Positions 16,330-55,200 of a DNA stretch of 64,000 bases are shown piece after piece. The DNA is from Macrocystis pyrifera (lineage: Eukaryota; Sar; Phaeophyceae; Laminariales; Laminariaceae), in assembly GCA_031763025.1 (NCBI GenBank), contig JASSKH010000005.1:10496528-10560527 (forward strand), read 5' to 3'. The notes beneath the pieces were generated by a model. The model ran no database searches, was not told the origin of the DNA, and saw only the letters and a program-made list of their open reading frames with translations. Position numbers and translations under genes: made by a program. Positions within the stretch are counted from its first letter, which is position 1. Every line of letters begins with the position of its first letter.

Positions 16330-16642
16330 CCATCACTTTTACTTCCCAGCCCACTCGTAGGAGGTTTTACCCTCGACGATCTTCTGGACAAGCCGTGGTC
16401 ACAGGTGTCGTCCCTTCTCCCCCCCGGTACGTGCCTTTATTTTTTTGTCGCGCATAGGGTTCAGCATTCCCACTGCTCGTCGATTTTCATCGAATGTAGC
16501 CAACTCACGCTTTCGCGCTTTCTGCTTATCAATTTTTTATGTAAGAAAAAGTCCCTATGAGCATGCACTCGGTGGGCCTTGAACCCACGAAATTGATCTT
16601 GACAGGCACGCGGACCACCTACCAAGCCACCGGGGACGCCGG
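16330..16642 (-). mobile_element. tRNA-derived SINE, copy 1
   Basis: Read on the minus strand it starts GCCGGCGTCCCCGGTGG, has an A-box-like TGGCTTGGTAGG (16618-16629) and a B box GGTTCAAGGCC (16575-16585), then the body shared with copies 2-4 (GGGTAAAACCTCCTACGAG). The sequence CCTGTCAAG around the putative anticodon loop resembles tRNA-Asp(GTC). The 3' A tail is lost and no target duplication is visible. SINEs are transcribed by RNA polymerase III and moved by LINE proteins. A free-standing tRNA gene is unlikely because the acceptor stem does not close. Confidence 0.85.
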
Positions 16643-16697
16643 CATTGGCATTGCATTGCATACGTGGCAACGTAGTATCTCTGTGGCGTAGCTTTGT

Positions 16698-30100: not shown

Positions 30101-32156
30101 CTGGCCCGACCCGCGAGTGACCCGTTTCTCACGGGTAATGACCTGACCCGACCCGTGAGATTTTCATCACCTCTTGATCCGACCCGACCCGTGAGATTTG
30201 AAAAGTTCTTGACCAGACCCGACCCGACCCGTGAGATTTGAAAAACTTTTGGCCCGACCTGACCCTACCCGCGAGATTTGAAAACCTCTTCACCCGACCC
30301 GACCCGTGAGATTTTGAACACTTCCTTACCCGACCCGACCCGTGACATTTTGATCCAGTGACCCGACCCGTGGGTCGGGTCATGACCCGCGAAAAGCCCT
30401 GGAATTATTTATACCAACTGCATTGGAAAGAACTCGCAAAATGAATGAAAACGACATATTAATAGCAGAAACTATCACTTTATGTTCCAAGCGAGATACA
30501 GCCGTTGGAACTGTCTTGAAAAGTCTAAAAACAAAAGCAAATTCAACATCGTTCCCATTGTGCGGAGGAACACAGAAACGAGCAACGGTCAAGCGTGACA
30601 TGATGCGAGACCATTATGTATATACGAAGCAATTTCGTGACAAGATCCAAAAATAACCGTTACACGGATCAGTTACTATAAATAGTAGCAATACAGGCGT
30701 TTTGCCATCGCCCGCTTCGAAGCAGGCAACGTTGGGCAACTACGTGCAGGAGTCGGTTCCATTCGCTGTGCCTACCCCACCCGGTGAGACCTGCCACATA
30801 CCAGGTAGGTGCTGCTGTGAGTTTGTACTGATGTTGCCTTTACTGGTAAGATACATGACCTCTATCTTATGTAGGACACGGATATTACCACGTTATAGAA
30901 CAAAACGCACAACAGCTCAAGTAAAAGCCAACCATCGAGCTGTGATTCACCTTAAGTCGGTCCGCCTTGGCATCAACGTCGCCAACATCTACTCCACCCT
31001 CGTGGCAGAACAGGAACTCTTCGCCCTCTCGGTTGGAGTTGATACACACGTAGTACTCGTCCGTTTGTTCGTGGGCAACAAAAGGCTCCACGATGAAGGT
31101 GTCCAGGATGCCAGTCACCACTTCGACCTTTCGCGCGAGCGAATCGGAGAGCGATGTCACGATCGATGCCAGCGATTCCATCAGGGAGAGAATCGAGCAG
31201 GTATAGATCAGCTGGTATATGATGCGAGTATTATTATTCAACTGTTCATTACTACTTCATATGCTCCGAACCGTAGTCGTACAAGAATACGGTTGAGGGT
31301 CCTTCTCTGCGAAGCTTTACCGACCAGAAGCAGCAGCTAAAATAAACGCCCCGGTACAGGCACGGGTGTCTGGAAGGTGGTTCACTATTGATAGGCAACC
31401 TGAGGTAACAGCAGCAGGCCCAACAACAAACCACTGCGATGAACAGGTCTCAAAGAGCTATTAATAGAGCAGTAGCGGATCGCAAACGTTATGATGACGC
31501 TCCCGTGTCTCGGTAAGAGTTGTGGAATACGTAATACCGTGCCTACTTGTACCTGTACAGGTACCGCTTTTAGAAGCAGCACGGACCCGAGGTTCTACGA
31601 GTATGGGAGCTGCTACTGCTGCTGCGGGCTCGTACTACTTGCTGGGTAGGAAAAATGCATGAGTAATGCATAGGATGCACGGCAGATGCACCACACACCT
31701 GCTGGCTCGTGCCCATACGCTCTGCGACCCACGCCTTGACCTCAGGCCAAGTCTTGTTGACCGCAAGGAGGCCCGCCTTTCCACGGCGTTTGATCAGCTG
31801 GTCGGGCTTGACCACAAGTGGGGTTGTGGAAAGCCAGGGGTTTTCTTGCTCGATTTTGGCGAATCCGGCTTCAGCGCCCCCCTGGAGCATGTCGGCTTTG
31901 ACCTGCCGGACAGACAGAACATACGCGGGTGGTGCTGTTTGGAAAGAAATCGAGACCGACATGCACGCAATGTGCTCCGCGATAATGTCTAGCCCGACCA
32001 CAGAACAAAGATACGTGCTGTAGTATCGCGCAAAAGTTTCGATAGCAGTCAACACACCTGCACGCAGCGGTTCTCGACGTCGTAGTCGCCGTACTCGGAG
32101 ATCCATTTGGACACAAGGCGCTTTCCATGGTACTCCCTGATAGCTTTGGCCGACAT
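18200..32156 (-). CDS. ACLY: ATP-citrate synthase (ATP-citrate lyase), single-chain fused form, 23 exons
   Basis: Exons (minus): 32058-32156, 31699-31902, 30951-31127, 26488-26544, 25655-25865, 25151-25320, 24890-25000, 24436-24587, 23926-24076, 23389-23486, 23086-23188, 22678-22782, 22152-22370, 21814-21912, 21451-21633, 20861-20992, 20528-20670, 20170-20319, 19835-19961, 19348-19506, 19019-19210, 18551-18655 and 18200-18352. The sum is 3300 nt, 1099 residues, against 1101 in human. The enzyme makes cytosolic acetyl-CoA and oxaloacetate from citrate, CoA and ATP. The N-terminus [14 protein letters not shown] begins the ATP-grasp domain ([36 protein letters not shown]). The CoA-binding part has [15 protein letters not shown] and [12 protein letters not shown]. 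The phospho-histidine lies at residue 762 in FGHAGACA. The citrate-synthase-like end has [24 protein letters not shown] and ILNVDG. Exon 10 is an acidic Ala/Glu linker replacing the regulated linker of animals. All phases fit; only the exon 8/9 junction uses a weak donor (GAGGT/gtgcct) and adds one Val. Plants and ascomycete fungi have two separate subunits instead. Confidence 0.97.
27280..27920 (+). mobile_element. Inverted-repeat element T1, copy A, one end missing
   Basis: It starts AGACCTATGCCAATGG and shares most of its length with copy B (43134-43972) in opposite orientation, including GGGCTGAGTCTATGTCGAG, CATCTATACTCGTTGGCC and CGTCGCACGAGCTG. The second terminal repeat, present in copy B, is absent here. 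No transposase frame was recognised; probably a non-autonomous DNA transposon. Confidence 0.7.
29492..30401. mobile_element. hAT-type non-autonomous element with 8-bp target duplication
   Basis: It ends in TTTTCGCGGGTCATG-type inverted repeats (right end, read inward: CAGGGCTTTTCGCGGGTCAT; left: CGCGGTTTTTCGCGGGTCAT). It is flanked on both sides by GAATTATT (29484-29491 and 30402-30409). Eight-bp duplications and CAGGG-type ends are known hAT features. Both subterminal regions are packed with ACCCGACCCG words in opposite sense on each side, as in other hAT MITEs where such motifs bind transposase. The length is 910 bp and there is no transposase frame. It lies in intron 3 of ATP-citrate lyase. 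Confidence 0.88.
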
Positions 32157-32909
32157 GACGTCCGTGCAGTAGGGGCAAGGCGGCGAGGGTGAGAAATGAC
32201 CAGGTGGGGACAACTGCAAGAATTGTGCGGTGAGAATCACGTTTTTCGTGACGTGATTTCCGAGAGAAGGATAATCATGAAAAACGCCTCAGAATGTCGT
32301 ATTGTGCTCCCGACCGGAGATTTCCAATTTTTCATTTTCGTTTTTTCTTTTTCAGATTTCTGTTTTCCTGTTTCAGCGACACATGTACAACCACAGACAG
32401 CAGCGAGCAGCGCGTCTGTGCAAGGCCGAAGTTTTGGGCAAACCTGTCACAGGTGTACTCGAGATATGAATACCAGAAGGTTCAGTACCTGTTCGCTTTG
32501 TAGGTGCAGCTCTGTACGTACGCTGCACCGAGTAGGAAATTCTGAAAAACGAAAGGTCACATCTACACCAAACAGCAGTAGTACCATCGACGAGTAGATA
32601 CAGCCGGCGTCCCCGGTGGCTTGGTAGGTGGTCCGCGTGCCTATCAAGATCAATTTCGTGGGTTCAAGTCTCACCGAGTGCATGCTCGTAGGGGACTTTT
32701 TCTTGCATAAAAAATTGATTAGCGGAAAGCGCGAGAGCGTGAGTTAGCTACATTCGATGAAAATCGACGAGCAGTGGGAATGCTGAACCCTATGCGCGAC
32801 AAAAAATAAAGGCACGTACCGGGGGGGAGAAGGGACGACACCTGTGACCACGGCTTGTCCAGAAGATCGCTGAGGGTAAAACCTCCTACGAGGAAAGTAA
32901 AGGTGATGA

Positions 32910-32940
<31 letters not shown>

Positions 32941-33042: not shown

Positions 33043-34226
33043 ATGTCTTCAGCTCCCACACAGGCGCTGTGGGGTATTCGACGAGAGGTCTTGGTACCCA
33101 TATCCCTCGATATTGACATCGATGGAGTCCGCGTCGTGGATACGCTCGCGTGGGATTGTCATCAGAGCGAGGTGAGATAGAGCACATCTGCACATCTCCA
33201 CTCCGCTGCCTGGATAGTGGGTCCCTGGGCTGTCAACAGCTAAATAAAGCTGAAAGCTGCCATCTATGGTCGTATGCAAAAACCACAGCAGTCTCAACCA
33301 GGTACCAGGTACCCTCATGGTATATTCATTGTACCGCACATATCTGTAGGTGGCATGAGAGCATTAATTAAACACCCAGCTTGCGAAGTGTTTTGTACGC
33401 AAGGCCGTAAGTTTAGACTGGCACTCGTACGGACAACTACTGTTGTAGCAAGTAGACAAGGATAGACGGTCTGCTCGTACTGCGTCTGGACGTAATCTAG
33501 ACGGTGCGGGTGGTCGACCCCGCACGGTTTATTAAGAGAACGCGAGAGACCGGAAAGCGCAACAGAAGGCCGCGAAGGAAAAGCTACAACAGCAGTAGTA
33601 GAAGGGGTACCGCTACCGCCACATATGACAGATAGTATATACCACACCACTTGTCATAATATTTTGGCTTTCGGAATTTTACCACCCGGCGTGGTATATT
33701 CCCCTGTTTTTTTTTTTGTTTTTTTTTTTGTTTTTTTTTACACCCTGGACAATTACTATTTCAATAGTCTATTGTGTCTACAATTGATTAAGGATGATGT
33801 GTGTTAATTGGATTTGTCGTGACAAATTTGTTTTTGGTGAGACCAACTATTATGGGAAAATTTTGAGACGTTATTTCTGGATTTTTTAGCGATCTCCGAC
33901 GCTCAGAAATAAGAACCATCTATTACGAATGGGTCAGAAAAACATCGATATTTTTGGCCTCAGTTCCTGGAGGGGGCAGAAATCAGCAAATCCTCTCAGA
34001 ACTGAGCCCAGTTCTGAGCGGTGTCGCGTACCTCTAGGAACTGAGAAATTTGGATTTTGGGTGCTCTGCCTACTGCTGCCCACCTGTCCACCACAGCAGT
34101 AGTACATACACCTTCCACTCACACCAACGGCTAGCTGTACGTACGGCCTACGGTGCTCGTGTGGGAGATGGCCTCTCCATCACCTAGAAGCGATAGCAGC
34201 GGCAGCGTCAGCAGCAGTTACTAGCT

Positions 34227-34262
<36 letters not shown>

Positions 34263-37200
34263 GGAGCAGCAGCAGCGATGCCGATTCGACATGGCCGGCG
34301 ATGATCCTCTAGTACTATGAAACAACGCTCACGGCAGCCGCTGCAATCGCGGACCTCGATGACGACGAGGAGGACGACTTGCCCGCTATGAAACGTTCGC
34401 GACGAGCGAAGCCGCGCCGAGACAACCGACAAACAACTTGGATGAAAATGTCGCGGGCCACAGCCATGTAAAAAAACAACAGCTCTCGGACGCCTCGTCA
34501 CGAAACCAACCAATCAATACTACCTCGTACCTGGTACTGTATTTAAAACCAGTTTTGACGATCAGAAGCCATAATAGATGGTTCTCATTTTTCATCCACA
34601 TATTTTTGGAGCCTCAGAACTAGAAAAATAATCTCCAGAAATAACGTCTCAAAAAATTCCCATAGTAGTTGGTCTGACTGTCTATTAATTGAAATTGTCA
34701 ATACAATTGATTTCGGCGATTGCCCATTAATTGAAATTGGCCAGGCAATTGTTTTCGGCGATTGCCTATGAATTGGAATTGTCCAGGCAATTGATTTCGA
34801 ATACCATCTACTAGTTGGAATTGTGTGAGGCCGTTTCCTATGCGGTTCGATTTTTGAGCTTCAGATTTTGACCCGATGGCATTTTCAGATATGAGCTTGA
34901 CAAATCGAAAGGGCCTTCCTATGCGGAAAAATCAGATTTATTTTGCGTGTAGAGATTTGAGCAAACGCCGAGACCAACTGCTGTTGTTGTGATTTTGCGC
35001 CGCGAAGAGACGCGCTGGGTGCGCTGCCCTGCGCGTAGGACCCAAGCGTCCGAGCCCACGCTGACTGACTGCCTCTAGTCTGGTGGCGAAGAGATGTGGC
35101 GAGTGCGCTAGAGTCAACCTGTCTTGGTATTTTGTGTTGGATTTTGTGACTTGACTTGCTGCTGCTGCTGTACAGCTGCAGTGTAGTCTACGAGTACGTA
35201 CGTATCCACGGAGAGGCGCGTGCCGAGTGCTCTTCTCTTGGTCTCTAGGCCCGAGCCCGCGCCAGCCGACTCTAGTCTGGCCACGGAGGGACGCGCCGTT
35301 CGCGCGTCGGGCGCGAAGCAACGTCGCTATACGGCTGTATCACCATCCAACTCATCGATCGTTCCGCTGTTGTTTGCTGTCGTGGATAATATCTTGAATT
35401 TAGAGAGCATGCCATTTTTCGATTTGAAAATCTGATGACCCAGGTCGTCGGATTTTGGGCCAAAATCCGCCAAAATCCGACGGCTTGGGTCATCGGATTC
35501 TCAAATCGAAAATTTTCGGGTCGGATTTTGCATAATCGGACTGCATAAGTAGGGTCATTCGATATTGAGATCGAAAAATACAAATCTGAAGCTCGAAATC
35601 GAACCGCATAGGAAACGGCCTGAGCAATAGGTTTCGAGTGTTGTCTGTGAATTGGAATTGTCCAAACAATTGGCTGTGGAGACTGCCAATTAATTGGAAT
35701 TATTCAGCAAATTGATTTCGGGTGCTATCCAATAATTGGAATGGTCCAGACAATTGCTTTCGGGTGTTGTCCACTAACTGAAATTGTTCAGACAATTGAT
35801 TTCGGGAGCTGTCTATTAATTGGATTTGTCTGAACATTTGATTTCGGCTGCTGCTTATTAACTGAAATTGTCCGCACAATTGATTTCGGGTGTTGTCATT
35901 TAAATGGAATTGTCCAAACGGATCTGTCCTCACAATTCATTTCAGATGCCGCACAAGAAATCAATTGCTCGATAAATGTCATGGCCGTGTACCTACAGTT
36001 AGTAGTTATTGTATTATAATAGACACTCCCCATTGAATTGATACTACTCGTAATATGGCACAATAAAGGACCTTGCAAATGATTGCGTATTGAGGGAAGT
36101 TCCCGATCCTGTTGTAGAGGCAATAATACTAGCATGGTGGTACTGTTGTGTACTGACGAAATCAAATGTAGTTCTACAAGTAGCTGCCAGCTTTCAAATA
36201 ACAGAGCCCTCTTAAACTCGATAGTCATGACAATTCCAATTAGTAGATCGCTTCCGAATCCCATTGTCCGGACAATTACAATTAATAGACGGTGTCTTAA
36301 AGCAGTTGCCCCGACAAGTCCAATTCATGTAAATCACCCGATTTCAATCGTTCAAGCAATTCCAATTAATAGACAGCCTGTGAAATCATTTGCCCGCACA
36401 AGTTCAATTGATAGGCAGTCTCCGAGCTCATTTGTCTGGACAATTCCAATTATTGAAAAACACCAAACATCAATTGTTCAGACAATTCCAATTAATGGAC
36501 AGTCTCTGGAATCAATTGTCAGGGCAACTTCAATTGATAGAGAGTCTCCAAAAGTATTTGTCTGGACAATTCCAATTGTTAAACAGTGCCCGATATCAAT
36601 TGTCCGAATAAATCCAATTGTTAGACAGTATCCAAGATCAATTGTCTAAACGATTTCAATTGCTATTAATAGACAGTCTATGACATCACTTGCCCGGACA
36701 ATTCCAATTAATAGACAACTTCGTGACTCTGCTGTAGGGGCAATAGTCTATTGATAGGTCTATTGTCCAAGGCATAAGCAGAAAAGGCGGGACACCTCAA
36801 CGTTAGTTTTGTATTTTATCTCCGCAGGTAGGAAGTTTTGATACCGCTTAGCCCATGTGCTCAGATGTAAATCATTAAAAAAAGTTTTCACGAAACAAAG
36901 TAATCCGTATGCACTGCTGTTGTTTTGAAATGTACGGGCAGTTAATTTAGGAGACTGCCCACCAATGATGGCATTGTCTGAAGTAGTTTTGGAGATTTCG
37001 TAGTAGTCGAAATTGTCGGGATAGTTGATTTTGTATACTGTCTATCGATTGGAATTGCCCGGACAATTGATTTAGAATGCAGTCTGCTAATTGAAATTGT
37101 CCGGACAATTGATTTTGGAGACTGTATAAATTGGAATTGTCGGGCCAATTGATCTGGGAGACTGTCTATTAATTGGAGTTGTCGGGACAAATACTTTTGG

Positions 37201-40200
37201 CGTCAGTCTACGAATTGAAATTGTCCGGACAACTATTTCGGGGGGCCGACTATCAATTGGAATTGTCGAGACAATTGATTCAGGAGACAGTCTGTCAATT
37301 GGAATTGGCCGGACAATTTATTTAGGAGAAGGTCCATTAATTGGAATTGTCCGGACCATTGATTATGGAGACTACCTATAAAGTGGAATTGTGTGGACAA
37401 TAGGGTCAGGTAGGGGTCACTTAATAGAAATTGTCTGGATAATAGAGCTCGACGCCTTTTAACTATCTGGAATTAGGGACCACAATAGACAGTCAATTGC
37501 AATAGGAAGCTATTAATAGACTATTGGACTAGTCTATTGTCCAGGGTATAACTATGCTTCTGTACTATTAATATATGGTACGAAGAGGTGTCGTATTTTC
37601 ATTAGAAAAAAATCAAAAATCACCACACCCCAGGACAATTCCTATTTGTTCTCCCCGAATCCGGAAAATAAATAACCTTCCACTTTTTTATTTCCTTGTG
37701 TCTCCACCTGGCAGGAGCGCTTTGTTCTCCCCGAATCCGGAAAATAAATAACCTTCCTTTGTTCTCCCCGGATCCGGAAAATAAATAACCTTCCACTTTT
37801 TGGACAAACGAAACAACGAGCGACTGAATACATATTAATTGTTACACCGCGCTCTCTCTCAGCTCTCTGCCACAACTGCATAGCCGCGGCAGCAGCGCCG
37901 AAACCAACAACAGCATCAACAGCATAAGCGGCACCAGCAGCACCAGCACCGGCAGTAGGCGTATCGACTCTGGGGAGTGCATAGACCAAGCTCTATTCTG
38001 CTGAGGGATACTCGTTGAACAAGAAAAATAAAAACGGAGTGCGAGTGGGAGGCCGGAAAATCTGGACACAAAGCAAAAGCGCGATCGGCCATGGCTGGGC
38101 AGGGGCGAGCTTTTCAACAGCCTATTGGTTCTACAATTACACAATCGCGCGTTCGGTTTATCACAATACTTGTAAAATTCGGTAAAAATGGAATATAGAG
38201 ACGAGACGTGATACGCAGCTTGCAAAGTTAAGTATCAACTATTTTTAATCAGTCGAACTCACAGCTGACGTATTTCAACATTTCAAAAGTTATAAAAAAA
38301 AAAACTATTAAATCAGTCGAACTCACAGCTGACGTATTTCAACATTTATAAAAATGTGTTAATTACTTTATTCTTTGTTGTTTTATCGTTTTATCTGTCG
38401 AATTGGGTTGTTGTTATTCTTTTTCTCTGAGACGTGGGAGGGAGTTTTCCATTGTTCGGCATGCAACCGATGTCACTGACGGTTTTTCCATGTTCATACC
38501 GACACCCTGTTACTCCGTGTAACAGCCTCTATTACTCCATGCAATAGTCCTCTCTATTACTCCATGTAATAGTCCTCTCTATTACTCCATGTAATAGTCC
38601 TATTACTCCCTCCCTTGGGCCCCCTCGACTGGGGCCTACTGTGAGGTCTCGGACGACCGAGTACCCCAAATGGTCTTCGACCATTCCAACTCCTGACAGT
38701 ATTCAGATTAACAGAATGTTGTTACTTCGTAGCAACTCCTTTCCTCCACCTTCGAAAGAAAAGGGGTGGGTGGGCGGGAGAAACTACGGAAATTCTGGTA
38801 GATTGACCTTCAATTTTTCAGGAAGGTTTTGCTCTTTATCACGTAGTTCACTGGTCAGCTGAGGTCGCGCGCTTCCCGTTTGAGATTGCTGTGCTTGTCG
38901 AACTGTGTGAGAATGATTTCGTGTGCGAGCTCTCTTCTTGTTCACCAGGTATCTAAATATTGGACTCATGTCAATTACATCGTAGTTTTCGACGTCCGCT
39001 TAAACTGCTCAAGCTTAGTTTCGTTTCGGCTAGTCCCTGACCTCCTCAGGGATACACATAAGTATGCGTTGGTTTTCGCTCATCAATCATAGAATATTTC
39101 AACCTCTAAATTCGCAATTCGCCCGTTCACAACAAAACACGGATTGTTTCTCGATCTGTTCCAGAGTCTCCTCACAAGCCTTCCCTTTATCTCATACCCT
39201 GTGCGCGACAAAAAAATAAAGGCACGTACCGGGGGGGAGAAGGGACGACACCTGTGACCACGGCTTGTCCAGAAGGTCGCTGAGGGTAAAACCTCCTACG
39301 AATTAGGCTGGAAGGTGAAGAAAGTGATGTTAAAAAAAAACTGGTATCAAGACCAGAAGAGACCAAGAACATTACAAGAACATGTACGCGTACGATAGTA
39401 AGATTCACCAACAAGACCTGTGCTGCAACATTTACAAGGAGTATTTAAAATTTCAAAAATTCCAGTGTCTTGGTGTGCATCTCACATGTTGTTGTTGTTA
39501 TTGCTGTTTTCTTCACATTAAACCGTTCTTTCAACCCGTCGACATCCAGCACAACCAGTGTCCGTGCCAATTCTTCAATCCTAGCTATTAATAGAGAGAC
39601 ACAAGTTCTGTGGTGAACTGGTGTAAACCAACTTTCGATTGTCTTGTGTACCCCGGCCCTCACGTGTCGGTCTGCTGTTTCAGTGCGCGAAATGGCACTG
39701 GCTGAAATCAATTGGAAATCGAGCCTGCTGTAAGTATTATCGTAGACCGTGGTAGCATCCAGGGGAGTGAGTCACCGACCAGTAGTCAATTGCGAGGGAA
39801 AATTTAGATAATGGAAAACGCGCGAACGGTTCACGCAACTTGCGAAGTTGAGTATCGACCGATCGGTTGAACTCACAGCTGACGTGCTTTTTGATATTAA
39901 TACTAATTGGAATTGCCTACTCGTAGGCAATTGCTTTGGGCCAATGTCGATTAGTTGGAATTGCCCGGGCGATTGCTTTGGGGCAATGTCTACTAATTGC
40001 AATTGCCTGGGCAATTGCTTTGAGCCAATGTCGATTAATTGGAATTGCCTGGGCAATTGCTTTTGGGGCAATGCCAATTAATTGGAAGTGCCTGGGCAAC
40101 TGCTTTGGGGCGATGCCAATTAATTGGAATTGCCCGGACAATTGCTTTTGGGCGAAGTCGATTATTTGGAATTGCCCGGGCAATTGCTATGGGACGAAGT

Positions 40201-43200
40201 GGATTAATTGGAATTGCCCGGGCAATTGCTTTGGGAGGAAGTCGATTAATTGGAATTGCCGGGCAATTGCTCTGGGAGAAAGTCGATTAATTGGAATTGC
40301 CCGGGCCATTGCGTTGGGGCGAAGTCGATTAATTGGAATTGACAGGGCATTTGCGTTGGGGCAATGCCCATTAATTGGAATTGACAGGGCAATTGCTTTG
40401 GGGCAAAGTTCATTAGTTGGAAATTTCTACACAAGTTGCTTTTGGGCAAAGTCTATTACAGATGGAATTGTCTACACAATTGATTTCGCCCAAAGTCTAT
40501 TTAATGGCATTGTTGAAAGCGTGTGATGTCAGTTAAGTGGAATTTTCCGTGCATACGAATTCGGCCCAAGCCAATTCATGGGAATTGACGCCGACCACAG
40601 TAGTAGTGACCAAAGTAGCTGTACAGAGAGACAGACCAACATACAGTTTTTTAGGTGAATCAAAACCAGAAGCACTAGTGGTTGTATTGTATGTCTGAGT
40701 CCATTCGTTACCCACTTTGCTCCCTTCCACGCCTTTTGCCCTTGCTAGACTCTAAGTGTCTCGTTAGCTTAATGTATCACTTCCTCCGCCTGTTCTCGTC
40801 GAACCTTATCAAACAAATAAATGTTTCAGTGAGAACAAGTACATATACCGTATATGACGTAAGCTATTACCCTTCTCTTGGATTCACCACACCATAACGA
40901 AACGCCGCGACTGCATTAGCCTACAGACACCGCGTCTGCAATCCAGAGCCTACGCGACTCCCACTAATGCGCTTCCGTCCGTAGCCCTTGGCTCCCACCA
41001 ACACTCCACTAAAGGCACGTGGCCTTCGCATGCCACTAATCGTGTCATGATTTTGACTCCGAAGCATTCCGGGTCTATACAGAGCCCGACTTCACCGCTA
41101 TCGCAGCGACTGCGTTAGTCTACCTACACCGCGTTTGCAACTCCAGAACCTACGCATCACGCGCAAATAAATGCGCTCACGGCTGTAGCTCTCGGCTCTC
41201 ACCCCCCCGCCCCGCAGAAAGAAGTCATGTGGCCATCGCACCCAACGCACCTGTGACTGCCACTAATCGGTTTTACTACGAAGCATTTCGGGTCTACACA
41301 GACCCTGACACCACCACCGCTAACGCCGCGACTTGACGCTCATCTTCTCGTCCAGGTAGAAAAAGCGCACACACATCTGCCAACGAGGTAAATATATTCT
41401 ATATGTAATTGATGAGGGGGGGGGTATACTGCTGAAATAGATTGATGTCTTGCATTAATAGTATTAATACAAGTATGTAGCACAAAATAAGTACCGGTAT
41501 CGATTATCATGCTGTGCCATCTGACAATGCAAACATGAACTTCAACGTTGATCACGTATGTATAAGCGTTCCCAAAAGAAGAAACTACATATGCTTGGGC
41601 GGGGGGGGGGGGGGGGTGGATGAAAATATTCAGTTACTTCAGTTAGTGTAAATCAATTTATTGGTTTCCTTTACAAGACGATTTTCAAATCGACCTGGCC
41701 TGGCTGCTGGACCAGTCCAAGACAAAAACTCTGGCCCGGCCCATCTATTTTGTCAATTTGGTGGACCGTGGCCCGGCCCGGCCCTTGATTTTTGAAGACA
41801 TAGGCCGTTCCCCCGCCCGGTCCATCAAATTTCGAAATGTCGGGCGGCCCGGCCTGTCCCGTCAACATTTTCGGGACAATTGGCCCATGGCAGCAAGCCC
41901 TGGAATATTGTGGACTCCTACGGGTGTTAAGCGGTAAGTTGGTATATTTTTCGGCTTGGAGGAAAAAACAACAACGAGTACAGCCTGAGACCCAAGTAAA
42001 AAAATCCCGCAATGAGAACTGCGATTGAACAGAAACCACTTGCCTAGAGAGTACAGTATTTAGGTGTTGCGACGACTGACCGCCCACCCCCCCCGTCTTG
42101 TTACTTTTACGAGTCAGGTTATTCTTGTTTCGTTCTTTTCTGCCCCTAATCCTATCCCCGGATTTCAGAAACTGCGTTCCCGGTTGGAGTGAGGGCTATT
42201 TTGCACCGAACTAAGCCCTTACTCCAACCGGGAACGCTATTTATTCCTGAAATACGGGGATGGGTCCTAATTGTCCCTGTACGTCCGTAGTCGTTAACAG
42301 TTAGCGATTACTCATGGCGTCAGGGATTAGTCGAACATATTAATGGGCCCTTGGCATCGTAAACTGGCGCTTGCGGTTGTACAAGAATGTGTCGTTGCCT
42401 GCGGGTCTTAGCTTCGATGGTGGCCCTCACTAGGCCGCCGAAGGAGCCCTCTTCCATATATTAGCATATTTCAAATATAAGTCGTCTGTCGTCTGCTCCT
42501 GTAAGTGCGACGGACGAAAAAGAGATGGCAAGCCAAACAGACAATACATAGGAATTATTATTATTTCTTTCCCCCCCCGACAATGTGTCGTACACACTTC
42601 AGTACGATATAAATCGATTATGTCTCTAGTTCCACTAAAGTCTCTCACATTACTTGAGACAACAAGTAGCCCTCTTTCCGTTCCTGGAGTCTCCACCTTC
42701 ACCCCTACAACTTCCTCCCTAGGCAGACGCTCGTTTTACCCTACTCCTCGTCAATGTTAAACCCTAACGTCATTGAAAGCACTATTCCGTTGTTCAACTC
42801 TCACCTATGCAATTCTCTCCAGACACCTTGCTTGTCCAAAGATCGACGTTGGCGTGGGCGGTCGGGATCGTTGCGGCGCGGATCGTCTTCAGCATTGAAG
42901 CCAAGAAGTCTTGACAGGTAGAAATCTCCGTCAAAACCTTCCTCACCTGCGAACAGTTTATAAGGATACTGAGGTTAAATATTTTCAGTAGGGTTGGTAA
43001 CCAATTAAATAATCCTGATTAATCACGTTTTTAAACCGTGATTAGTTTAAGCATAATCATGATTATATTTCCGTGATTATTTAATTATCCCAAAAATAAT
43101 AATGATTAATCAATCAACTTAAATTTGGTGATTAGACCTATGCCAATGGTAACGCGAAGTTCAAAAGTTTTCTTTCAAAAATATTGCTTTAAAAAAACAG

Positions 43201-46200
43201 CCGAAAATATCCTCGTACCGCCGCTGTGGGAAAAAAAGGAAAAAATGTTTGATTTTTCCTTTTTTTTTTTTTTTTTAACAGCTGCAGGCGGCGCAATTTG
43301 TATTCTCTCGTTGCAAATTGTCAATTGTCAACACGCTGATAAAAATCAGCTCGTGCGACGATAGATGCTCGATCTCGATATAGACTCAGCCCACGGCCAA
43401 CCCGCTTGGTGTCGGGCAAGGCCAACGAGTATAGATGACGGCATCGAAGATAGAAAGTGGACAAATGCTCTAGGGGGCGAGAGCTTGCCGGCGGCGTCCT
43501 GCGGTATCCTCCCAAACCTGAAAAAAAACCTGTTTTTGCCATTCGAGGCGGATCGAGAAATTGTGTCTTCTGTTTAGTACACACCAGCGGCTAATTATTT
43601 TTTTATCGTACGCCTGGCCAGCGCCCGCCACACGTCACTGGCCACTGTGTGAAGACGGTGACCCAAGGGTGGGTCGGAGCCCCTAACGAGCGCACTCTGT
43701 TCAGAATTCATGACGCAATCGTTGGGTTTGTCGATCGATGTCTGTCGAGGACTCGGAATCTCGCCGCTTCGAACCAAAGATCGGCCTGAGTTTTTCTGAA
43801 GCCTATCTTGGCCCAACATCGGCCCCAGATTTGCTTTTTTCGGGCTTTTCCAACAGTTGAGAACTTTTTTTTTCTAAACGTGCCCATAGGAAGCGTGTTC
43901 TAAAAAATTTGGCGGGTATCTTTGGAATTCAAACTTTTTATTGATACTTCGCGTTCCCATTGGCATAGGTCTTATTGATGATTATTTTTCGTAGAAAGAC
44001 GTATTTTGCTTCGTTAACATACTCTGGACAATAGGCTATTGGATATGCCTATTGGTCTATCAATAGGTTGGGGTATTGCATGTAGATACCTATTGCCCCC
44101 TGCAATGGGAAGGTGAAAGTCTCGATCGATAGCTATCTATTTGATCAATATGTTCAGAGCAACATATAAATATACAATAGGCTATTGTTCTTAGGATAAC
44201 TATATGGATTTGTCTGTCGATATCTATTTATTTGACCAATAGGTTCTGAGCAATAGTTATAATAGGCTATTGTTCTTAGGATAGGTATGTGGAATTGTCC
44301 GTTGATACCTGTTGATTTCCCGATATCTTCAAGGAAGTACCGATCGATACATATTTATTTGATCAATATGTTCAGAAAAGTTTGTGCTATAGCCTATTGT
44401 TCTTAGGATAGGTGTAAGGTTTTGTCGATCGATACCTACTTTTCTTTGACCACTATGTTGAGATAAATGGTACCTAGGCTATCGTTTTTATTGCATAGGA
44501 TAGAGATGGATGCGACATTATCGATCCGTACCTAACCATGTGGTCCATGGGTTCACATGAAAAGATACAACTGGCTTGATATCTACCTGGTACTTATTTG
44601 ACCTACAGATTCAGTGAAAAATGTATAGGTGCAACAGGTAATGTTTTTAGGATAGGGATGCAAAAAACTGTTGGTCGATACCTATTTATTTCATCAATAT
44701 ACTGGTAGGTATCTATCAATACCCTTGCAAACCTACTTGAAGAATTACAATAAGCAATATGTATGGATGGACACCCTTGCAGACCTGTTTCATTGAGCAA
44801 TAGGTATTGGTCGACATTAGTACAAGCCTGCTGAATTGACCAATATGCATCGGTCGGTATCACTGCAAATCTATCGTTTTATAAACACTTATGGATACAT
44901 GGCGATGCAAAGGTATTATTGGTACCATAGCCTATTGAGGATTGCTTTCAAACTATATTGGTGTCCAACATTACTATCGATAGACACCTTCACCATCCTA
45001 TCGGACGCACAATAGGCTATCGTGGCCACTGCCCCTGCCCTATTGCTGTTTTCAATACCTATTGCTGTAACGATATACCACCAATTCATTGTGGCTCGCA
45101 ATAGGTATCGATGCCCATCATCTCCGACCTGTTGTTGGTCCGATAGACTATTAAATAGGGTACTATCCAGGGTGTAGGAAGAAACTACAGGGCACACAAA
45201 CATGTCGGTCTAGAACACTACAGGCTCGAGCCTCATACCACCTTTGTTGAGAAGACCATCCACCTCAGGTACAACAACGACAGACAGCGCCGGATATAGG
45301 GATGCTGCGCCAACCTGAAGGGGCACGCCGCGTGGATCAATAAGCTCTATAGTATGCGAACTGGACGTGTCTTAGCCACGAACCTATCGAAGATACCACG
45401 CCACAATGCCCGGCACCTTGGACAATATCGCCTATTGAACATGCCTATTGGTCTGTCGATAAGTTGGGGTATTGCATATCGATACTTATTGCCCATTGCA
45501 GCGGGAGGGTGAAATTGTCTATCGATACCTACAAGGTATTTATTCGGCCGAGAGGTTAAGAGTAATAAATACAATACAAGTAGGCTTTTTTTTCTTAGGA
45601 TAGGTATGTTTAATTGTCTATCGATACCCATTATTTTGCCAGTATGTTCAGAGACGGAGCGATCGATACCTATTTATTTGATCCATGTGTTAAGAGGATT
45701 TTGTGCAATACCCTATTGTTCTTAAGATACGTGTGTGGTTTTGTCGACCGATACCTATTTCTTTGACCAACGTGTTGAGATGGATAGGTACAATAGGCTA
45801 TTGGCCGAACAGTAGATCAGTGAAGATATCCATCGATGCCTATTGCCGGCCACAATAGGCTTCAAAAAGCGTCAATCGATACCTATCGCAATCAACAATA
45901 GCCCTCCTATTGCAATAGGAACATATCGGTTGCGTATTGACCTGAAACCTATTGTCCAGGGTGTGTTCGTATAGCGCGGAGGCACTGCTGCAAGCCTCCG
46001 CCGGCATGACAGGAACAATGGAGGCCGCCTTGCTCGTTGTCATGGACAGCATAGATGGGAAACAGTGGTACATCATCCACAAGCAGCTACAAGAAACGTC
46101 GCTGCAGCTGTGTGTAGCTGCGCGAAGGTTCGCGCGAGAAGTTGGTCGTGCTCTACAACACCCCCCACCTACTGCCGATGGTGGCTGTTGCCGAAGCTCA

Positions 46201-49200
46201 CCCCGAATTTAACGGCCCGGCTCATGAGACGCGGGTGCCACGGATTCGAGTGCGGAGCGTTGAGTGGGACATCTAGTCAACCGCGGTTTTAACTTGCTAT
46301 ATGGCTCCGTTGGCGACGTTGGGGACATGTTGTTCGGCAACAGAATCGACGACAGAGTGCAGGACGTGGCGTAACCTGATTCGGTGGTGTGTCAGGAGTT
46401 CAGTGTGGCCTTCGAACAGGAGATTGACGGTGTTCAGTGGCCAGCTTTTCTGCGGGTACTCATCTTTGGCGGTCATTTCAACCATGGGTACGCTGGGGGT
46501 AGGAACGTGGCCGAGCACTCTGAGCTGGATAATAGTGTCGGACGATTTTGAGCACTCGACCTTGGGAATCACTTCTTCTTTGTTCTTCGGGGTCAGCTTT
46601 CGAGGTGTTAATGCCTTGTATGGTTTGAGCAGTTTGGAATTGCTGCTGCTTTTCGAGGGGTCGGGGGGGGGGGGGGGGCGGAATCACCATATATAATCTA
46701 CCAGGCTACCAGGTAGTAGGTATGCATTGAATATGTGTTGATGGTTAGAGATGTCTAGTGGGTCGCAAGTTGTAAGGCGCTTCGTACGGCGTTTTTTTTT
46801 TTTTTCCCGCCCCATTTTGTATTTTTCGGGGGGGGGGAGTGTGGTGTGGGTCATGGAATTGGGTTCAAGGCGCCCATGTCATGTGTTGAAAAGAGACTTT
46901 TTTTTTCCGCCCCATTTTTGTGTCTTTTGGAGGGGGGGAATAGTGTAGAAATGGGAGTAGCGTAGAAATGGATTTTGGTTTGGGCGCCATCGATTCGAAT
47001 GGTTTCATGCGACTTGGGCCGAGATTAGCTCACTGACTACAGACATAACGGCCCCAGCGGATATAACAGAGTTAGTGTGTGGAAAAGTGTGTAGAACACA
47101 CCCTTTCAGTCATAATGGTATGAGAAAGCTACGCAGCCTGGGCCAGTACACCGGTAATGGGTGCACATACCGTGGAGATGGGGTTTGGCGGATGGCGGAC
47201 GCGCAGATTCTAGAAGCAGTGCGTAACGTTTTATTCCCAGGTGCCAAAAAAAACAGAGAGGTACTCTATTAATAGTTCCTACAACCAATGACAGGTGGCT
47301 CTCGGCGACGCTGCTGCGGCCCGCTTCTTTGCCCTTGCCGGCGTTCCTCATGACTCCAACTGACGAAGCCCGATTGCAGAAGGCACGACTGCCATGGCTT
47401 AGCTGCTCCAGTACTGGGTGTGCTGGTGTGCCCTTGGGTCGGGTGTCGTGGTGCCGTAGCGGCCTAAAATATTATCCCGGCATGATAACGGCTTCCAATT
47501 CTCTGTAAATATTCAAATAATCATGATTAATCAATTAACTTTTATTTCCTGATTTATCACGACCAGATGATTATAGTCAAGTAATCATGATTAATCAAAA
47601 GCCAAAAACACCCGAAATAATCAATATTCAAATCAAGGCCGTATTGCAGTTGATTACCAACCCTAATTTTCAGGTACATGGTACCATGGTATACGATATC
47701 AGGCCCGCATGTATGCCAGTACACGGTTACATATAAGGTATGCTTCTATACGTACACAATATTAGTATGATGTATGTGCACAGGACAAAAATATCGGTTT
47801 GTAAATGACATAATAAACTACAAGCGGGGCTTCGCGGCGGCGGGCTCCCTTGAAACGGATCATGTTGCATATATACCAGGTATATAGGAATAACGTATTC
47901 ATAGATAACATAAGAAAGTTTGGTACACACCTGAACTATCCCGGGTACCGGTATATATCCTACCGAAAATACCCTCGATACCTTTGTATCGTCTCTAAAA
48001 AACAAGTATAAGCCTAGTAGCAATATTAAGGTTGCCTCCTAGTATTATCGTCACCTGTCGAATAGTAAACAAAGGTACCGCGGATTAGAAACCTGTCCGC
48101 ACGATGGTTGAGAAAAACGTCTGGACATTCGCGCGAGTATACAATGGTAGCGAAAGCCCCCCTCAGTACACCGGAGCAGGAACCTATTGAACAAACAACA
48201 ATCAGTTTTGATAAGGCTAAAAATATATTGCCCTTGCATTTCCTGTTGGTCAAACTAAAAAACCTAAACCTTTCGTCTGCACAATTTCTGTAAGTAAGTA
48301 AAACACAACAGAAACCTACCAGGTACTATGTATCACCCGAACAGTTCATATTCGAGGCATCCACCAGACAGAGTATCTGGTGTAAAAAAAACAAGTCTAT
48401 TGTGGAGGAACCTATTGAATGTTAATTGATGTATTATAATACATACCCTGGTATATTGGTTTGGTTGGGTAAAGTGGAAACCTATTATTAATAGTAAGTC
48501 TATTGTGGAGCTGGAACCTCTTGAATGGACAGTATCACTTCATGGATCAAACCAAATATACCAAATATGTACATTGCTTGCAATTGGTATGAGTAGGGCA
48601 AAGCGTAAACCTATTATTGTCTGCACAATTCCTATTAGAAGAACAGACCACTAATCTGTTGCCCGAACAATTTTTATTGGTAGATCACGGCAGAAACCTA
48701 CTGCCTGCATAATTCCTATTGGAATAACAGACCAATAATATATTGCCCGAACAGTTTCTATTGGTAGATCACGGCAGAAACCTACTGCCTGCACAATTCC
48801 TTTTGGAATAACAGACCAATAATCTATTGCCCGAACAATTTCTATTGGGAGATCAAGGCAGAAATCTATTGTCTGCACAATTCCTATTAGAATAACAGAC
48901 CAACAGTGTATTGCTCGAACAATTTCTATTGTTAGATCAGGGCAAAAACCTATTGCCTGCACAATTACTATTAGAAGAACAGACCAATACTCTAGTGCCC
49001 GGAACTTTTTATTTATTCGACGCATTACGAAATCAATTGCTCGACCAATTCCATTTAATAGATACCCGAAATAACTATTGTGAAAACTATTGTGGGCAGG
49101 TCCCCGATTATGTTGTAGAATTAATAGAGCATTGGAGTATGCTGTGCAAACAAGTTGCCACAGACAATTCCAATTAATTCGCAGTCTTGTGAATAATTCG

Positions 49201-52200
49201 TCCGGACAAGTCCAATTAATACGATAGGAACCCTCCGAATAATGTTGATTTTGCAATTCTAATTTCACTAATAGGTTAGGAATCCATTGTTCAGGCAATT
49301 CCAATTGATAGACTTTTCGTTCGGTCTATTGTAGGACCAACAGTCCGTTGCGATGTCTTTTGCCCAAGGCATAAACAACAGTCTTGTATACCTTTCATAG
49401 CAGTACAGCCGTGTGCACTCATGCATTGTAACAACAACTTTTTATTAACTAATCAACGCTAAGTCTATAGTTCGAAATATTTCAATTATTAGACATCCTA
49501 CAGAACAATTTGTCGGCGCAATTCCAATTAATAGACAACCTCATGAATCAATTGGTCTGGCAATTCCTGTTGTCAAACAGCCTGTGGAATCAATCCGTGT
49601 GGCAGTTCCTATTGACATAAACAGCCTGCGGAATCGATGAACCTGGCAATTCCTATTAATGTAGCAGCCTTCGGAATTATTTATCGGGGTAATTCCAATT
49701 ATTCGTGTTTTTCCAAGGCTTTTCACGTGTGGAACACAACCGCGGTGCGTTTTTTTTTTTTTTTCAATATCACAGCGGTTCCGTGCGGTTTATAGTGTTC
49801 GGGAATACAGCTCGGTGCGGTTTGTATGTTTTGAAGAATCGTACAGCGCGGCTCGTTGCGGTTTGCAACCAAGCGAACGTTGCGGTGCGGTTCAGTTAAA
49901 ACCGATCAAACCCGCACCGCACCGTACCTGCGCCATACAAATTTACTTGCTTTTAAAGACCTCCTGGCTTTTTCACTGTTTTTGATTTTTGGAAAGTCGA
50001 ACGGTGCGATTTGTTACATTTTGCTCACCGCCTTGGGGTGAAGACCTCGCGTGTAGACCGCGGGGTTGAGCACAGATAGCAGGCGCCGCACCATGGGATG
50101 CTCTGGGAACGCGAAGGGAATCATCGCGATGATGTGGATGGTCTTCACCAACTCCCACCTTGGTAAACTGATCCGGGTCGTCTTGGTACAAGGTGCTTGC
50201 CAACGAGGTTTGTACCTTGACCTCTGCACGATCCTTCCTGCGATTTAGTGACGGGAGTTTTACGGAACAAAGACAAAGCGCAGGGCAGGGCGGGGCGTGG
50301 CGGTTGATTTGTTAGCGCGTGTGATTCAGGCGCGAGTCCGCACATACCAGGTATCACGTACCACATCGTGCTATATTCATGACAACACCCTGGGTACTAT
50401 ACTAGGGCGTCGTCGCCGACAAGGGGGGCTACATCAAACAGGAACGGGTCTGCATGGCAAGCGAAACATGTCGACAGTCCAAGAAGCGACTGACGATCAC
50501 GTCTGCGTAAACCTCGAACGCGACACAGCATACTATCCACCACGTTCCACGTCTGAGCACACCTCCGCAGTTGTTGTACCCACGTTATCTGCAAGGCCTT
50601 CGCTGTGGAGGTCTTTAGCTTGTGCGCTTGGCTCAAATGCCGTGTCGCGTTCGACGTCTGCGCCGATGTTATCGCCAGTCGCTTCCTGGCCTGTCGACAA
50701 GTCTCGTTTACCATACAGACCCACTCCTGTTTGATGTGGCCCCCCTTGTCGGCGACGACGCCCTTCGTCGCCATATCCACGCCCCAGTTGAAAACGATCG
50801 ACCTCTGGAGGCCCGATGGGCAGTGCTCGGCTGGAGGAGCAGGTGTCGACCCGCTTCCCTCGCTTTGAGGACCAGTGGTAGTACTCATGTTATGTGTTGT
50901 GATTGTGGTGGTTGTGGTTGTGGGAGACTGGGGGACGCGCTGCTGCGGCAATGCCTTCTACTGTGGTCGGTTGAAATACATACGTTCTTCTTGGTAACGC
51001 TTGTCTCTTTGTGTCGCAGATCGTGTTATACCATATTATATCCACGATAACACCGCGCCGTGTGTCGTGTGGTTGGTAAATATCGTACTACTGTATATCC
51101 ACTGAAAACACCGCGCCGTGTGTCGTGTCGTTGGTCGCAGGGTTCGTCGCAGGAAGCGAAATGTGAAATATTTACAATACATATTATACATCTAAAGCAG
51201 AAGACCCACAATGGTGGACATGGCTCTAGAACGAATCTACTTCTTAGTTTGTCCCGCCCGCAACTAGAACTGTGTCGTCTGAATATAGTGTCAACTACCG
51301 ATGTTAACTATTGATTTCAGAGGTCATCTGTTACTTGGAATTATCCGGACGATAGGTTTGGGATGTTGTCTATCAATTGGAATAGCCCCGACAATAGATT
51401 TGGGATGATGTCTATTAAATAGAATTGTCCCGGCAATAGATTTGATGTGCTGTCTATTAAATGGTATTGTCCCGACAATAGATTTGGGGTGCTGTCTATC
51501 CATTGGAATTGTCCTGACAAAGAGATCTGGGATGCTGTCTATCAATTGGAATTGTCTCGACAATAGATTTGGGGTGCTGTCTATTAAATGGATTGTCCCG
51601 ACAATAGATTTGGGGTGCTGTCTATTAAATGGAATTGTCTCGACAAAAGATTTTGCATGCTGTCTATCAGTTGGAATTGTCCCGACTACAGATTTGGGAT
51701 GCTGTCTATTAATTGGAATTGGATGGGCAATTGACGTGGCCAACACACTGCAAAGCGCTATTCCCTGTACAATAGGATGGGATAGTAAATTCCAACAGAC
51801 TATTGTTTCAACAACATAGTCTCGTGGGTAACTATTAACAGAAATTGATTCGATCATTGATTCAGGTGGGTGTACATTAATAAAAGTTGCCTGGACAATA
51901 GAGCCAGGTGGGTGTCTGTTAATGGAATTTTTCCGGACAACAGAACGCGAGGCATTTAAAATTTTTGTAATTAGATATCACAATAGGCGGTCTATTGCAA
52001 TGGGAACCTATTAATAGACAATCAGAGTGTTGTCTATTGTCCAGGGTGTGATTTTTGTGTACACCGTCACCCCGTTTGGGATTATAGAATATTGACCACC
52101 CCGGGTGGTATACTGTAGCAGTGTGATAAATAGGGGGGGGTGAAAGCATTGGTGCACGACGGCCAAAAAAAGACGCGATCGAGCCTGGCACCGCAGCAGC

Positions 52201-55200
52201 AGTCGTCTGAGCCGCCGACATGTTTTGCCCGTTGCGATGAACCACGCTTGCACTGCCGGTACGGCTCTGTACCTCCTCTACGTCCATACTGCCGAGCTCC
52301 GTACGGTAAGCTTTGGTACCGGTGCTCTTGCACACCTGGTGTGCTGCTGCTGCTATGCTGCACCGGTACCGATATTCGTTTTGTTGATCGCGGCATGCTT
52401 TCACCCGCGCTGATAACTTGGGGGTGTAATAATGATTACCTGGTAAGAGGCATTACCTGAGGGGGTGTGGTATACACCGTCACCCGTGTGGTAACTCGGC
52501 TGGTCGGATTTTAGAATAATGACCAACGGGATGGTATACTATGGGGGTGTGGTATACACTAATGTGACATATACGGTACTACTACGGCTGTACCACAGTA
52601 TACCGATACATGATACAGCAGTAGTATATTCGAAACGCCCATTCCACGTAACAGTCATGTTACTACTTAACCCCTTCAGTACTGGAGTCCCGGATACACC
52701 ACTTTGAGTGGTTTATCCCCAAAACGGGACCCCTATATGTGTTGTCTTCACATCAAATCGTCATTTCTACCCAGCTTGATCAGTACACCAAGTGTCCGTC
52801 CTGATTCCTTGTCCTAGAGAGATACTACTTCTGTGGTCACAGACTGCGAGACAGAGGAAGACCAAGAACAAGAAAAAAAACGCTAATTCATGGATCAAGC
52901 AAGTGAAATGCCAGCGTACCGGGTACGAGAACACAACAATAAGAACAAAAAGACAATTCCGTAGGTTTACCTAGGGTTATCCAAGAGCAAAATTAATTTC
53001 CTGTCCTAACGGACAAAATGACAAAAAACGGTACACCAGCGCTTTTTTTTTGCCAGTTTACTGTACAAAAACTCAAACCAGGCAATCAGGGTACACCAAA
53101 CCCAAGTTAGATGACATTCTCTGTCGAGGTATACCGTTTTATGCGAAACATTCATATCCGTCCGTCTCACTTGCGAAAATGCCAAAAAAAACGGCACACC
53201 ATCGTATTTTTTCCAGTTTACGGTACGAAAAAGTAAAACGAGGTGATCAGGGCACACCAAACTCAAGTTATATGACGTTTTCTGTCAAGATATACCGTTT
53301 TCTAGCAAAAAAGCAATGTCCCGGTACAGCTTATATTTTCGAACTAAAACCGCGTTCGTTAATAGAAACGCCTTCTTGTACTCGTGTTCATACGAACATA
53401 CCAGGTACGAGTCAAGAAGACATTTTATTCCGTTTCGTGCGCGTGCGTGTACTCAGAACACGGTACCGCAAGCGAGCCCGGCGCAGCCGCGGGTGTAAGC
53501 GGGTGCTAGCAGGTAGAGGGGGTGTTGCAAGGAGCGCGGTCGCCGTTTGCATGGCTAGGCGTCGCGTGTGCCTCGAGACACGTAGGAAGCACGAATGGGC
53601 TCTGTCTGGCCTCCTTGTGAGGCTCCGCTTGTACCATATACGAGATATAAGGATCGTTTTGATATGCGAAATAATATTCAAGCGGTGCTTATTTTTGCGA
53701 CCGAACTAAACTTCAAAGAGACTTCAATGCAGTTTGAGCACCAACTTCGTCGACGTGGCGAAGAAGGGCCACAGTGAGCACCGGGCTTCACGCGAGGCGG
53801 GCGACGGGGCTCGCTGTGGCAGAGAGGGAGGAAAACTTTATCCGGATCGAATCGGTGGTGAGGTGGTCGCGAGGCGGGGGGCGGCGTACAGGGCTAAGAG
53901 GGAAGCTCTGCTGTTCGTTTTTTTTTCTTTTTGACCGGTGGCACGTGTTCCAATCAGGCAGAAAATTATTACATGAGAGGAGACAGGGATTTTTTCCCTC
54001 TCCTTGCTTTTTCGCATCGTACATGTTCATACGAATAGCCCGTAAGCATCGTGAACTTTCGGAATGTTCTACGTGCACAAGTACCTGTATTACAGTATGT
54101 GTGTAAATTTTATACGTGCAGAGCTGTCTCTTGTGTCGAGACGATATCCGACGATGTGCGGGATGAAGGAAAAGTTTCGTCGTCCATCGCCGATAAAAAT
54201 CCCCGGCAGGACAGAGGGAGAGCGTCTCTCCGAATGTTCTACGTGCACAAGTACTTGTATTACAGTATGTGTGTAAGTTTTATACGTGCAGTGCTGTATT
54301 GTGTCGAGACGATATCTGACAATGTGCGGCACGAAGCAAGAGTTTCGTCGTCCATCGCTCATAAAAATGCCCAGCAGGACAGAGGAAGAAACTGAAGGGA
54401 AAAAATTATTTCCAATTAGTTCGAAGAAAAAAACAAGGTCGACCGCGACAAGAGTTAGCGTCCCACGACAACAACAATCGGCAAGAAGAACGTGAAATAC
54501 GTACAACCCGCGGTGCCTCCTATTTGTAGCGCATACGAACAAAATGACAAAATACGTGCTTCCTATTAATACTTACTTTTCTTGATACTTGCATTTGGCA
54601 GGACGATAACGGCCCACGTCAACAACGGCCTACAACTCCATACCTACAACCTACGGTACCCATTATTTCTAGTGCCAAAACCAAATTTTATAGTACCAAG
54701 ACTAGAAGAAAAAGCGGAAATTCTATGGTACGAATACGTGCTTCCTACGTACTTTTCTTGATACTTACACTATAGCAGTATCATAACAATAGGACGATAT
54801 ACAGCAATTTAGTGCCCACATTGAGGTCAGCGTCCCATGACAACAACATCCGACGACAACAGCCTACAACAACAAAGGACGACAGACAACCTACCCTTCT
54901 AACACCCTACACAGCTGGTCGAAACAAGACAGCAGTGATAATGACTTCTCCGTACCTACAACCTACGGTACCCACTATTTATAGCGCCAAAATCAAATTC
55001 TATAGTACCAAAACCAAAAGAAATAAAACAGAAACTCGATGGTACGAATACGTACTTCCTGCGTACTTTTCTCGATACTTACATTAGGACGATAACGGCC
55101 CACGTCATAAACAGCCTACAACTACAAATAATGACAAACAACCTATCCTTCTAACATACTACACAGGTCAAAACCATACAGGGTGCCTCCTATTTGTAGT

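Follow-up and report, generated by a model that had tools for sequence, protein, structure and literature searches.

The arrays of short palindromic units that recur in this window (the whole stretch of 64,000 nucleotides that was analysed) raise the question of whether they belong to mobile elements, are satellites that spread by other means, or serve as binding sites for some other protein. The original prediction, which listed at least six stretches with tandem units of about 60 bp, holds as far as the head-to-tail units are concerned, which occur far above chance; its period does not, as Tandem Repeats Finder and self-matching both give 42 bp and a period of about 60 bp is thereby rejected. 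The listed repeats were confirmed as well, while their coordinates needed splitting or correcting (Table 1), and with the period corrected and the coordinates split the underlying observation is sound.

On the arrays, Tandem Repeats Finder returned periods of 42 bp or multiples thereof, with a single one of 44. Self-matching at a lag of 42 amounted to 0.46-0.78 in all eight unit arrays tested, in each case above the array's own maximum in 100 shuffles (0.32-0.45); in the left and right arrays of A and in D some multiple of 42 scores even higher. A 42-position unit profile, trained on the window itself and used with a score cut-off of at least 8, detects 85 units, versus a mean of 0.6 in 10 first-order Markov sequences. 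Neighbouring units are spaced by exactly 42 bp in 59 of 68 cases, the remaining nine spacings being 40, 41 (twice), 43 (three times), 44, 45 and 48 bp. Leaving out eight weak, shifted or isolated matches (36914, 39776, 40240, 40407, 48214, 48259, 49142 and 51577) and adding one joined unit gives a set of 78 units, the consensus of which is TGTCTATTAATTGGAATTGTCCGGACAATTGATTTNGGNNNN. The strongest dyad of the unit lies between positions 22 and 23 and reaches 0.67 over 8 pairs (the best of 300 column permutations being 0.57), and one half of it reads GGACAAT, the same letters that sit within the word with which the elements end.

Table 1. Coordinates of the elements, arrays and parts of element A within the window
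Feature	Position	Strand	Description
Element A	33741..36774	+	two type I ends, 12 + units, centre, 12 - units; TA on both sides
A, left type I end (57 bp)	33741..33797	+	36/57 identical to right end
A, nested insert 1	33840..34675	.	AGACCAACTA... inverted ends; unrelated; gap of 881 between units
A, nested insert 2	34829..35620	.	GGCCGTTTCC... inverted ends; unrelated; TGA on both sides
A, unit-free centre	35936..36207	+	272 bp
A, right arm	36208..36717	-	12 units
A, right type I end (57 bp)	36718..36774	-	from end models and end alignment
Element B	36914..37548	+	+ units, type II end right, TA outside; left end not found
Array C	39895..40568	+	homogenised + units; no adjoining end found
Element F1	44020..45174	+	both ends; weak lags 43 and 85
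Element F2	45414..45963	+	both ends, right one type II; weak lags 43 and 85
Element D	48603..49371	-	- units, 84-bp higher-order repeat, type I end right, TA outside
Array D2	49454..49708	-	six - units; no end found
Element E	51325..52048	+	+ units, type II end right, TG (CA inward) outside; left end not found

Nine element ends are closed by the terminal word YRCCYTGGACAATAG. In the window the word ACCCTGGACAATAG has three exact matches and nine with at most two mismatches, where five Markov sequences lead one to expect 0 and 0.4, respectively; two of these nine (51762 and 51888) fall in unit sequence and the other seven are ends. The right ends of F1 (three mismatches) and D (four) were counted on the likeness of the wider end, and a candidate left end of D at 48445 (4 mismatches in 14 positions) was not counted, 45 matches to the terminal word being expected by chance at four mismatches. 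The right end of D is identical to that of A at 37 of 57 positions. Two independent cross-matches concern F1: its right end is matched by a model that used no ends other than the left ones of F1 and F2 (22.0 bits, E 7e-6), and its left end by the type II model (22.2 bits, E 6.5e-6). Scores of 41-47 bits for type I and of 81-82 bits for type II were obtained with ends that had gone into the models themselves. Type I comprises both ends of A and that of D, type II those of B and E and the right end of F2, and a third class the left ends of F1 and F2. A further type I-like match at 51763-51819 (E 0.0013) is in phase with the E units at 51745 and 51787 and was interpreted as a pair of diverged E units, although their profile scores (-11 and -21) are low and of a size that ordinary sequence also gives.

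The visible ends had been predicted to share a terminal word and to abut TA. The word is indeed shared by nine ends, but TA lies beside only five of them (binomial P 6e-5, with boundaries set by eye, so that TA could be part of the end itself), the others being flanked by CA (three) or GG (one). TA on both sides is found in A only, the flanks of F1 (CA and TA) and F2 (GG and TG) being unmatched between sides. Apart from the TA of A, no target duplication was seen, and by eye none of the three two-ended elements, which are old copies, has a 7-bp flank shared by both sides. Taken together, the homology of nine ends and the surplus of TA beside them make it likely that these sequences form a TA-associated family of DNA elements.

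The stretch at 33741-36774 is one element (A), with two unrelated inserts nested in its left arm. These differ from each other, both being about 0.8 kb long with inverted ends; the TGA-flanked insert 2 would fit a Harbinger-type MITE. When the flanks of insert 2 are joined, one full 42-bp unit is restored, which is the only way in which one of the 12 units of the + arm becomes visible, and A is therefore older than insert 2; it predates the inserts that it carries. The identity between the inverted 57-bp ends of A exceeds a shuffled maximum of 26 positions, and its arms match in inverted order (72.5% over 240 bp). Even so, the arms are not mirror copies of each other: unit identity is 0.64 between the arms versus 0.66 and 0.64 within them, and a unit resembles its counterpart in the other arm (0.62) no better than it resembles the remaining units (0.64), i.e. 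position along the arm makes no difference. Parts of the centre of A resemble 49017-49119 of D (16/16 and 26/32 bases), a stretch that has - units on both sides.

Both ends are seen in three elements (A, F1 and F2), one end in B, D and E, and none in C and D2. Arms of the foldback class are present in A, with 12 + 12 facing units, whereas B and E hold a one-way array. Since the units of B and E, read inward from the visible end, point the other way from those of A, a plan with inverted arms is not common to the elements. The predicted foldback class of TA-targeting DNA transposon is partly supported, as a TA-associated family with foldback structure in A only. The left limit of D is uncertain, there being two weak units at 48214 and 48259. 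The array predicted at 39895-40545 does share the units, with a mean identity of 0.75 in C, but has no recognisable end adjoining it. What may be a left end that C has lost is a candidate type I relic at 38110-38138 (E 1.6e-4), which does not have the terminal word; in between, just left of C, lie 1.6 kb bounded by diverged direct repeats (38213-38271 and 39833-39885, 76% identical). The supposed variants at 44022-45963, finally, are two two-ended elements (44020-45963) from a sister family in which lags of 43 and 85 are weakly kept, the top self-match of F2 (0.35) barely exceeding its shuffled maximum (0.34).

The window also holds repeats of other kinds. A dispersed inverted pair of about 640 bp with 83% identity (27280-27913 and 43344-43972) is possibly another transposable element, and a repeat family at 16331-16643, 32603-32935, 39196-39340 and 57937-58062 is 87-98% identical in pairs over 100-314 bp. 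Two arrays of ACCCGACCCG-rich units have a period of about 35-41 bp (29539-29745 and 30139-30353), an inverted repeat has 128-nt arms that are 86% complementary and 105 nt apart (50404-50531 and 50637-50764), and tandem repeats occur at 54062-54389 (168 bp, 1.9 copies) and 55496-55666 (61 bp, 2.8 copies).

The units themselves carry a record of how the arrays grew. In a tree of the 78 units, based on 42 columns and with 6 of 75 inner branches well supported, the array labels need 29 changes, compared to 52.8 in shuffles (none of 200 as low). Clustering is evident for the units of C, D and E (for each, 0 of 500 shuffles as low), as well as for those of the left arm of A (1/500) and D2 (3/500), and is not clear for the right arm of A (64/500) and B (38/500). 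C, D and E thus hold array-specific expansions of the unit, and the tree fits local tandem duplication inside some copies. Links between arrays exist as well, as B_37373 groups with E_51829 and E_51871 (support 96/84), which are two end-proximal units of E, and B_37415 groups weakly with E_51913 and C_40527 (91/68).

Following these results, it seems that the arrays are best explained, at a probability of roughly 0.55, as old, non-autonomous cut-and-paste DNA transposons, the units of which would be repeated protein-binding sites with copies of the terminal word. A transposase not seen in the window would cut the ends that begin with YRCCYTGGACAATAG beside a TA target. Each of the 42-bp units that fill the interior contains the inner part of the terminal word twice, in inverted orientation (ATTGTCC.GGACAAT), and the units probably offer a dimeric protein, with the transposase as the likeliest candidate, a series of binding sites. 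Being four helical turns apart, such sites would place many binding positions on one face of the helix in each element. Tandem duplication within single copies would alter the number of units and yield array-specific variants, with the units adjoining the ends tending to be retained; where an element has type I ends on both sides and arrays that face each other, a foldback (A) would result. As to mechanism, the reading with the best support is that an element would have multiplied a protein-binding site also used by its ends, a kind of binding for which the direct evidence is that from Galileo (PMC3688188).

The alternative that survives best, although an unlikely one, is that these are minisatellites or satellites whose arrays expand through slippage and unequal exchange and spread in some way other than transposition, the terminal word being a mere conserved edge motif. 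C and D2, without ends, look like this, the expansions in C, D and E are array-specific, B and E each show one end only, and there is no target duplication beyond TA. It does not account well for the nine homologous ends, for three elements bounded on both sides, for the inverted 57-bp ends of A and the TA excess, or for the sister elements F1 and F2, which have common ends but hardly the unit. The end-less C and D2 fit the satellite alternative in the original prediction; A, B, D, E, F1 and F2 have at least one end.

Improbable, in our view, is that the arrays are binding sites for a host or viral protein (in an origin, enhancer or segregation function) and were brought into the region secondarily, after the model of the baculovirus homologous regions or the herpesvirus origin family of repeats. 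The dispersed arrays of short dyad units at regular spacing speak for such a role, but the ends and the nested position fit transposons, and the open reading frames of the window match cellular genes rather than a viral set. The Pfam matches among the 143 open reading frames scanned (shorter ones lay outside the scan) include ATP-citrate synthase, SNF5 and a methyltransferase, from which the window is taken to be eukaryotic; no transposase domain was matched among them, neither a DDE/D transposase nor a P-type transposase with a THAP domain. The terminal pattern has 5 matches in IMG/VR, plausibly by chance, and no relatives of the arrays came to light in the collections searched (IMG/VR and GTDB among them): the unit patterns had no match in three scans, and a single GTDB match in Bacillus (130 bases read as coding, without an array) was taken as chance.

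Still less probable is a foldback mechanism based on strand structure, in which the units extrude as cruciforms and the arms pair. The inverted arms of A speak for it, as for the prediction that whole arms could fold on each other, yet there is no unit-by-unit mirror likeness and the arms are inverted in A only. The accompanying claim that every unit could form a cruciform is not supported: when six 42-mers were folded as DNA, their z-scores lay between -0.3 and -1.6, and none of 11 pairs in the unit dyad showed compensatory change (P 0.05-0.92), so that this mechanism is disfavoured. Least probable of all are Helitron-type elements, in which central tandem arrays are common and which would explain arrays inside non-coding elements and several copies with one recognisable end, but whose ends begin with TC and end with CTRR, as those found here do not, and A moreover has inverted ends.

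Selection may maintain the spacing of the units in the putative transposons. With 10.5 bp per turn, 42 bp corresponds to four helical turns, and gaps are indeed scarce in the arrays. Hand-picked pairs gave 989 substitutions to 27 gaps versus 372 to 46, and when the test was repeated with ten array combinations, each represented by its best pair, and with 24 control pairs that do not overlap, the arrays had 975 substitutions to 34 gaps versus 521 to 66 in other repeats (P 1e-9; no pair of at least 100 bp involved D, D2 was not included, and the pairs are not independent). The shortage persists against controls below 85% identity (381:43, P 1e-6) and against eight controls at 75-85% (P 2e-7), whereas the three controls below 72% (128:9), which are closest in identity, give P 0.09; the F elements (101:12) are like the controls. 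As proof of spacing selection the gap shortage is therefore not upheld, i.e. some controls suggest selection on the 42-bp spacing and the closest ones do not.

A tentative extension of the transposon explanation, which we regard as possible rather than likely, is that a TA-targeting family turned its terminal word into helically phased dimeric sites, 42 bp apart, whose number could increase freely. A copy richer in sites would have an advantage in the competition for transposase supplied in trans, and the arms of foldbacks would have arisen as a side effect of multiplying sites rather than through strand structure.

Comparison with known systems gives partial likenesses. Tc1/mariner-type MITEs have a TA flank, short inverted ends and no coding capacity, features that are seen here too, with TA at five of nine ends and on both sides only in A, but no link to such a transposase was found and, to our knowledge, unit arrays of this kind are not usual in them. 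The target duplication of Galileo is 7 bp, whereas here it is at most TA. In both Galileo and Tetris of Drosophila the terminal repeats contain tandem units (PMC3688188, PMC4079207). Galileo belongs to the P-element superfamily and is like the present family in having long terminal repeats with internal tandem repeats; the binding sites of its THAP domain lie near the end and in two of four direct repeats, the other two being without the binding site (PMC3688188). Unlike the present family, with its 42-bp dyad units and no transposase seen, it carries the gene for a P-type transposase, and its direct repeats are long. Tetris and DAIBAM of the Drosophila virilis group are described as apparently non-autonomous, with inverted arms, a variable number of tandem repeats of ~220 bp, target duplications of 8-10 bp and inverted repeats of up to 1,735 bp, and satellite-like arrays of their own tandem unit also exist (PMC4079207). 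The present elements, with 42-bp units, a TA flank and mostly one-way arrays, are different, and membership of Tetris was rejected on the period (42 versus ~220 bp) and on flanks without an 8-10 bp target duplication. No description of the family was recognised among the titles and abstract openings of the papers listed, which, with Repbase and Dfam outside that search, does not imply its absence from print.

The general plan is thus already known from the foldback elements of flies, and the present version may show why the repeats are carried. For the internal tandem repeats of foldback-type elements, which have no settled explanation, the work on Galileo suggests a role as additional sites for the transposase. 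In the present family the core of the repeat can be seen to have letters in common with the terminal word and returns after a whole number of helical turns, and two-ended, one-ended and end-less versions lie together in a single window. If copies elsewhere bear out that the elements move, the family would offer a test of whether the number of sites determines the success of transposition, and of how a transposon comes to seed satellite DNA.
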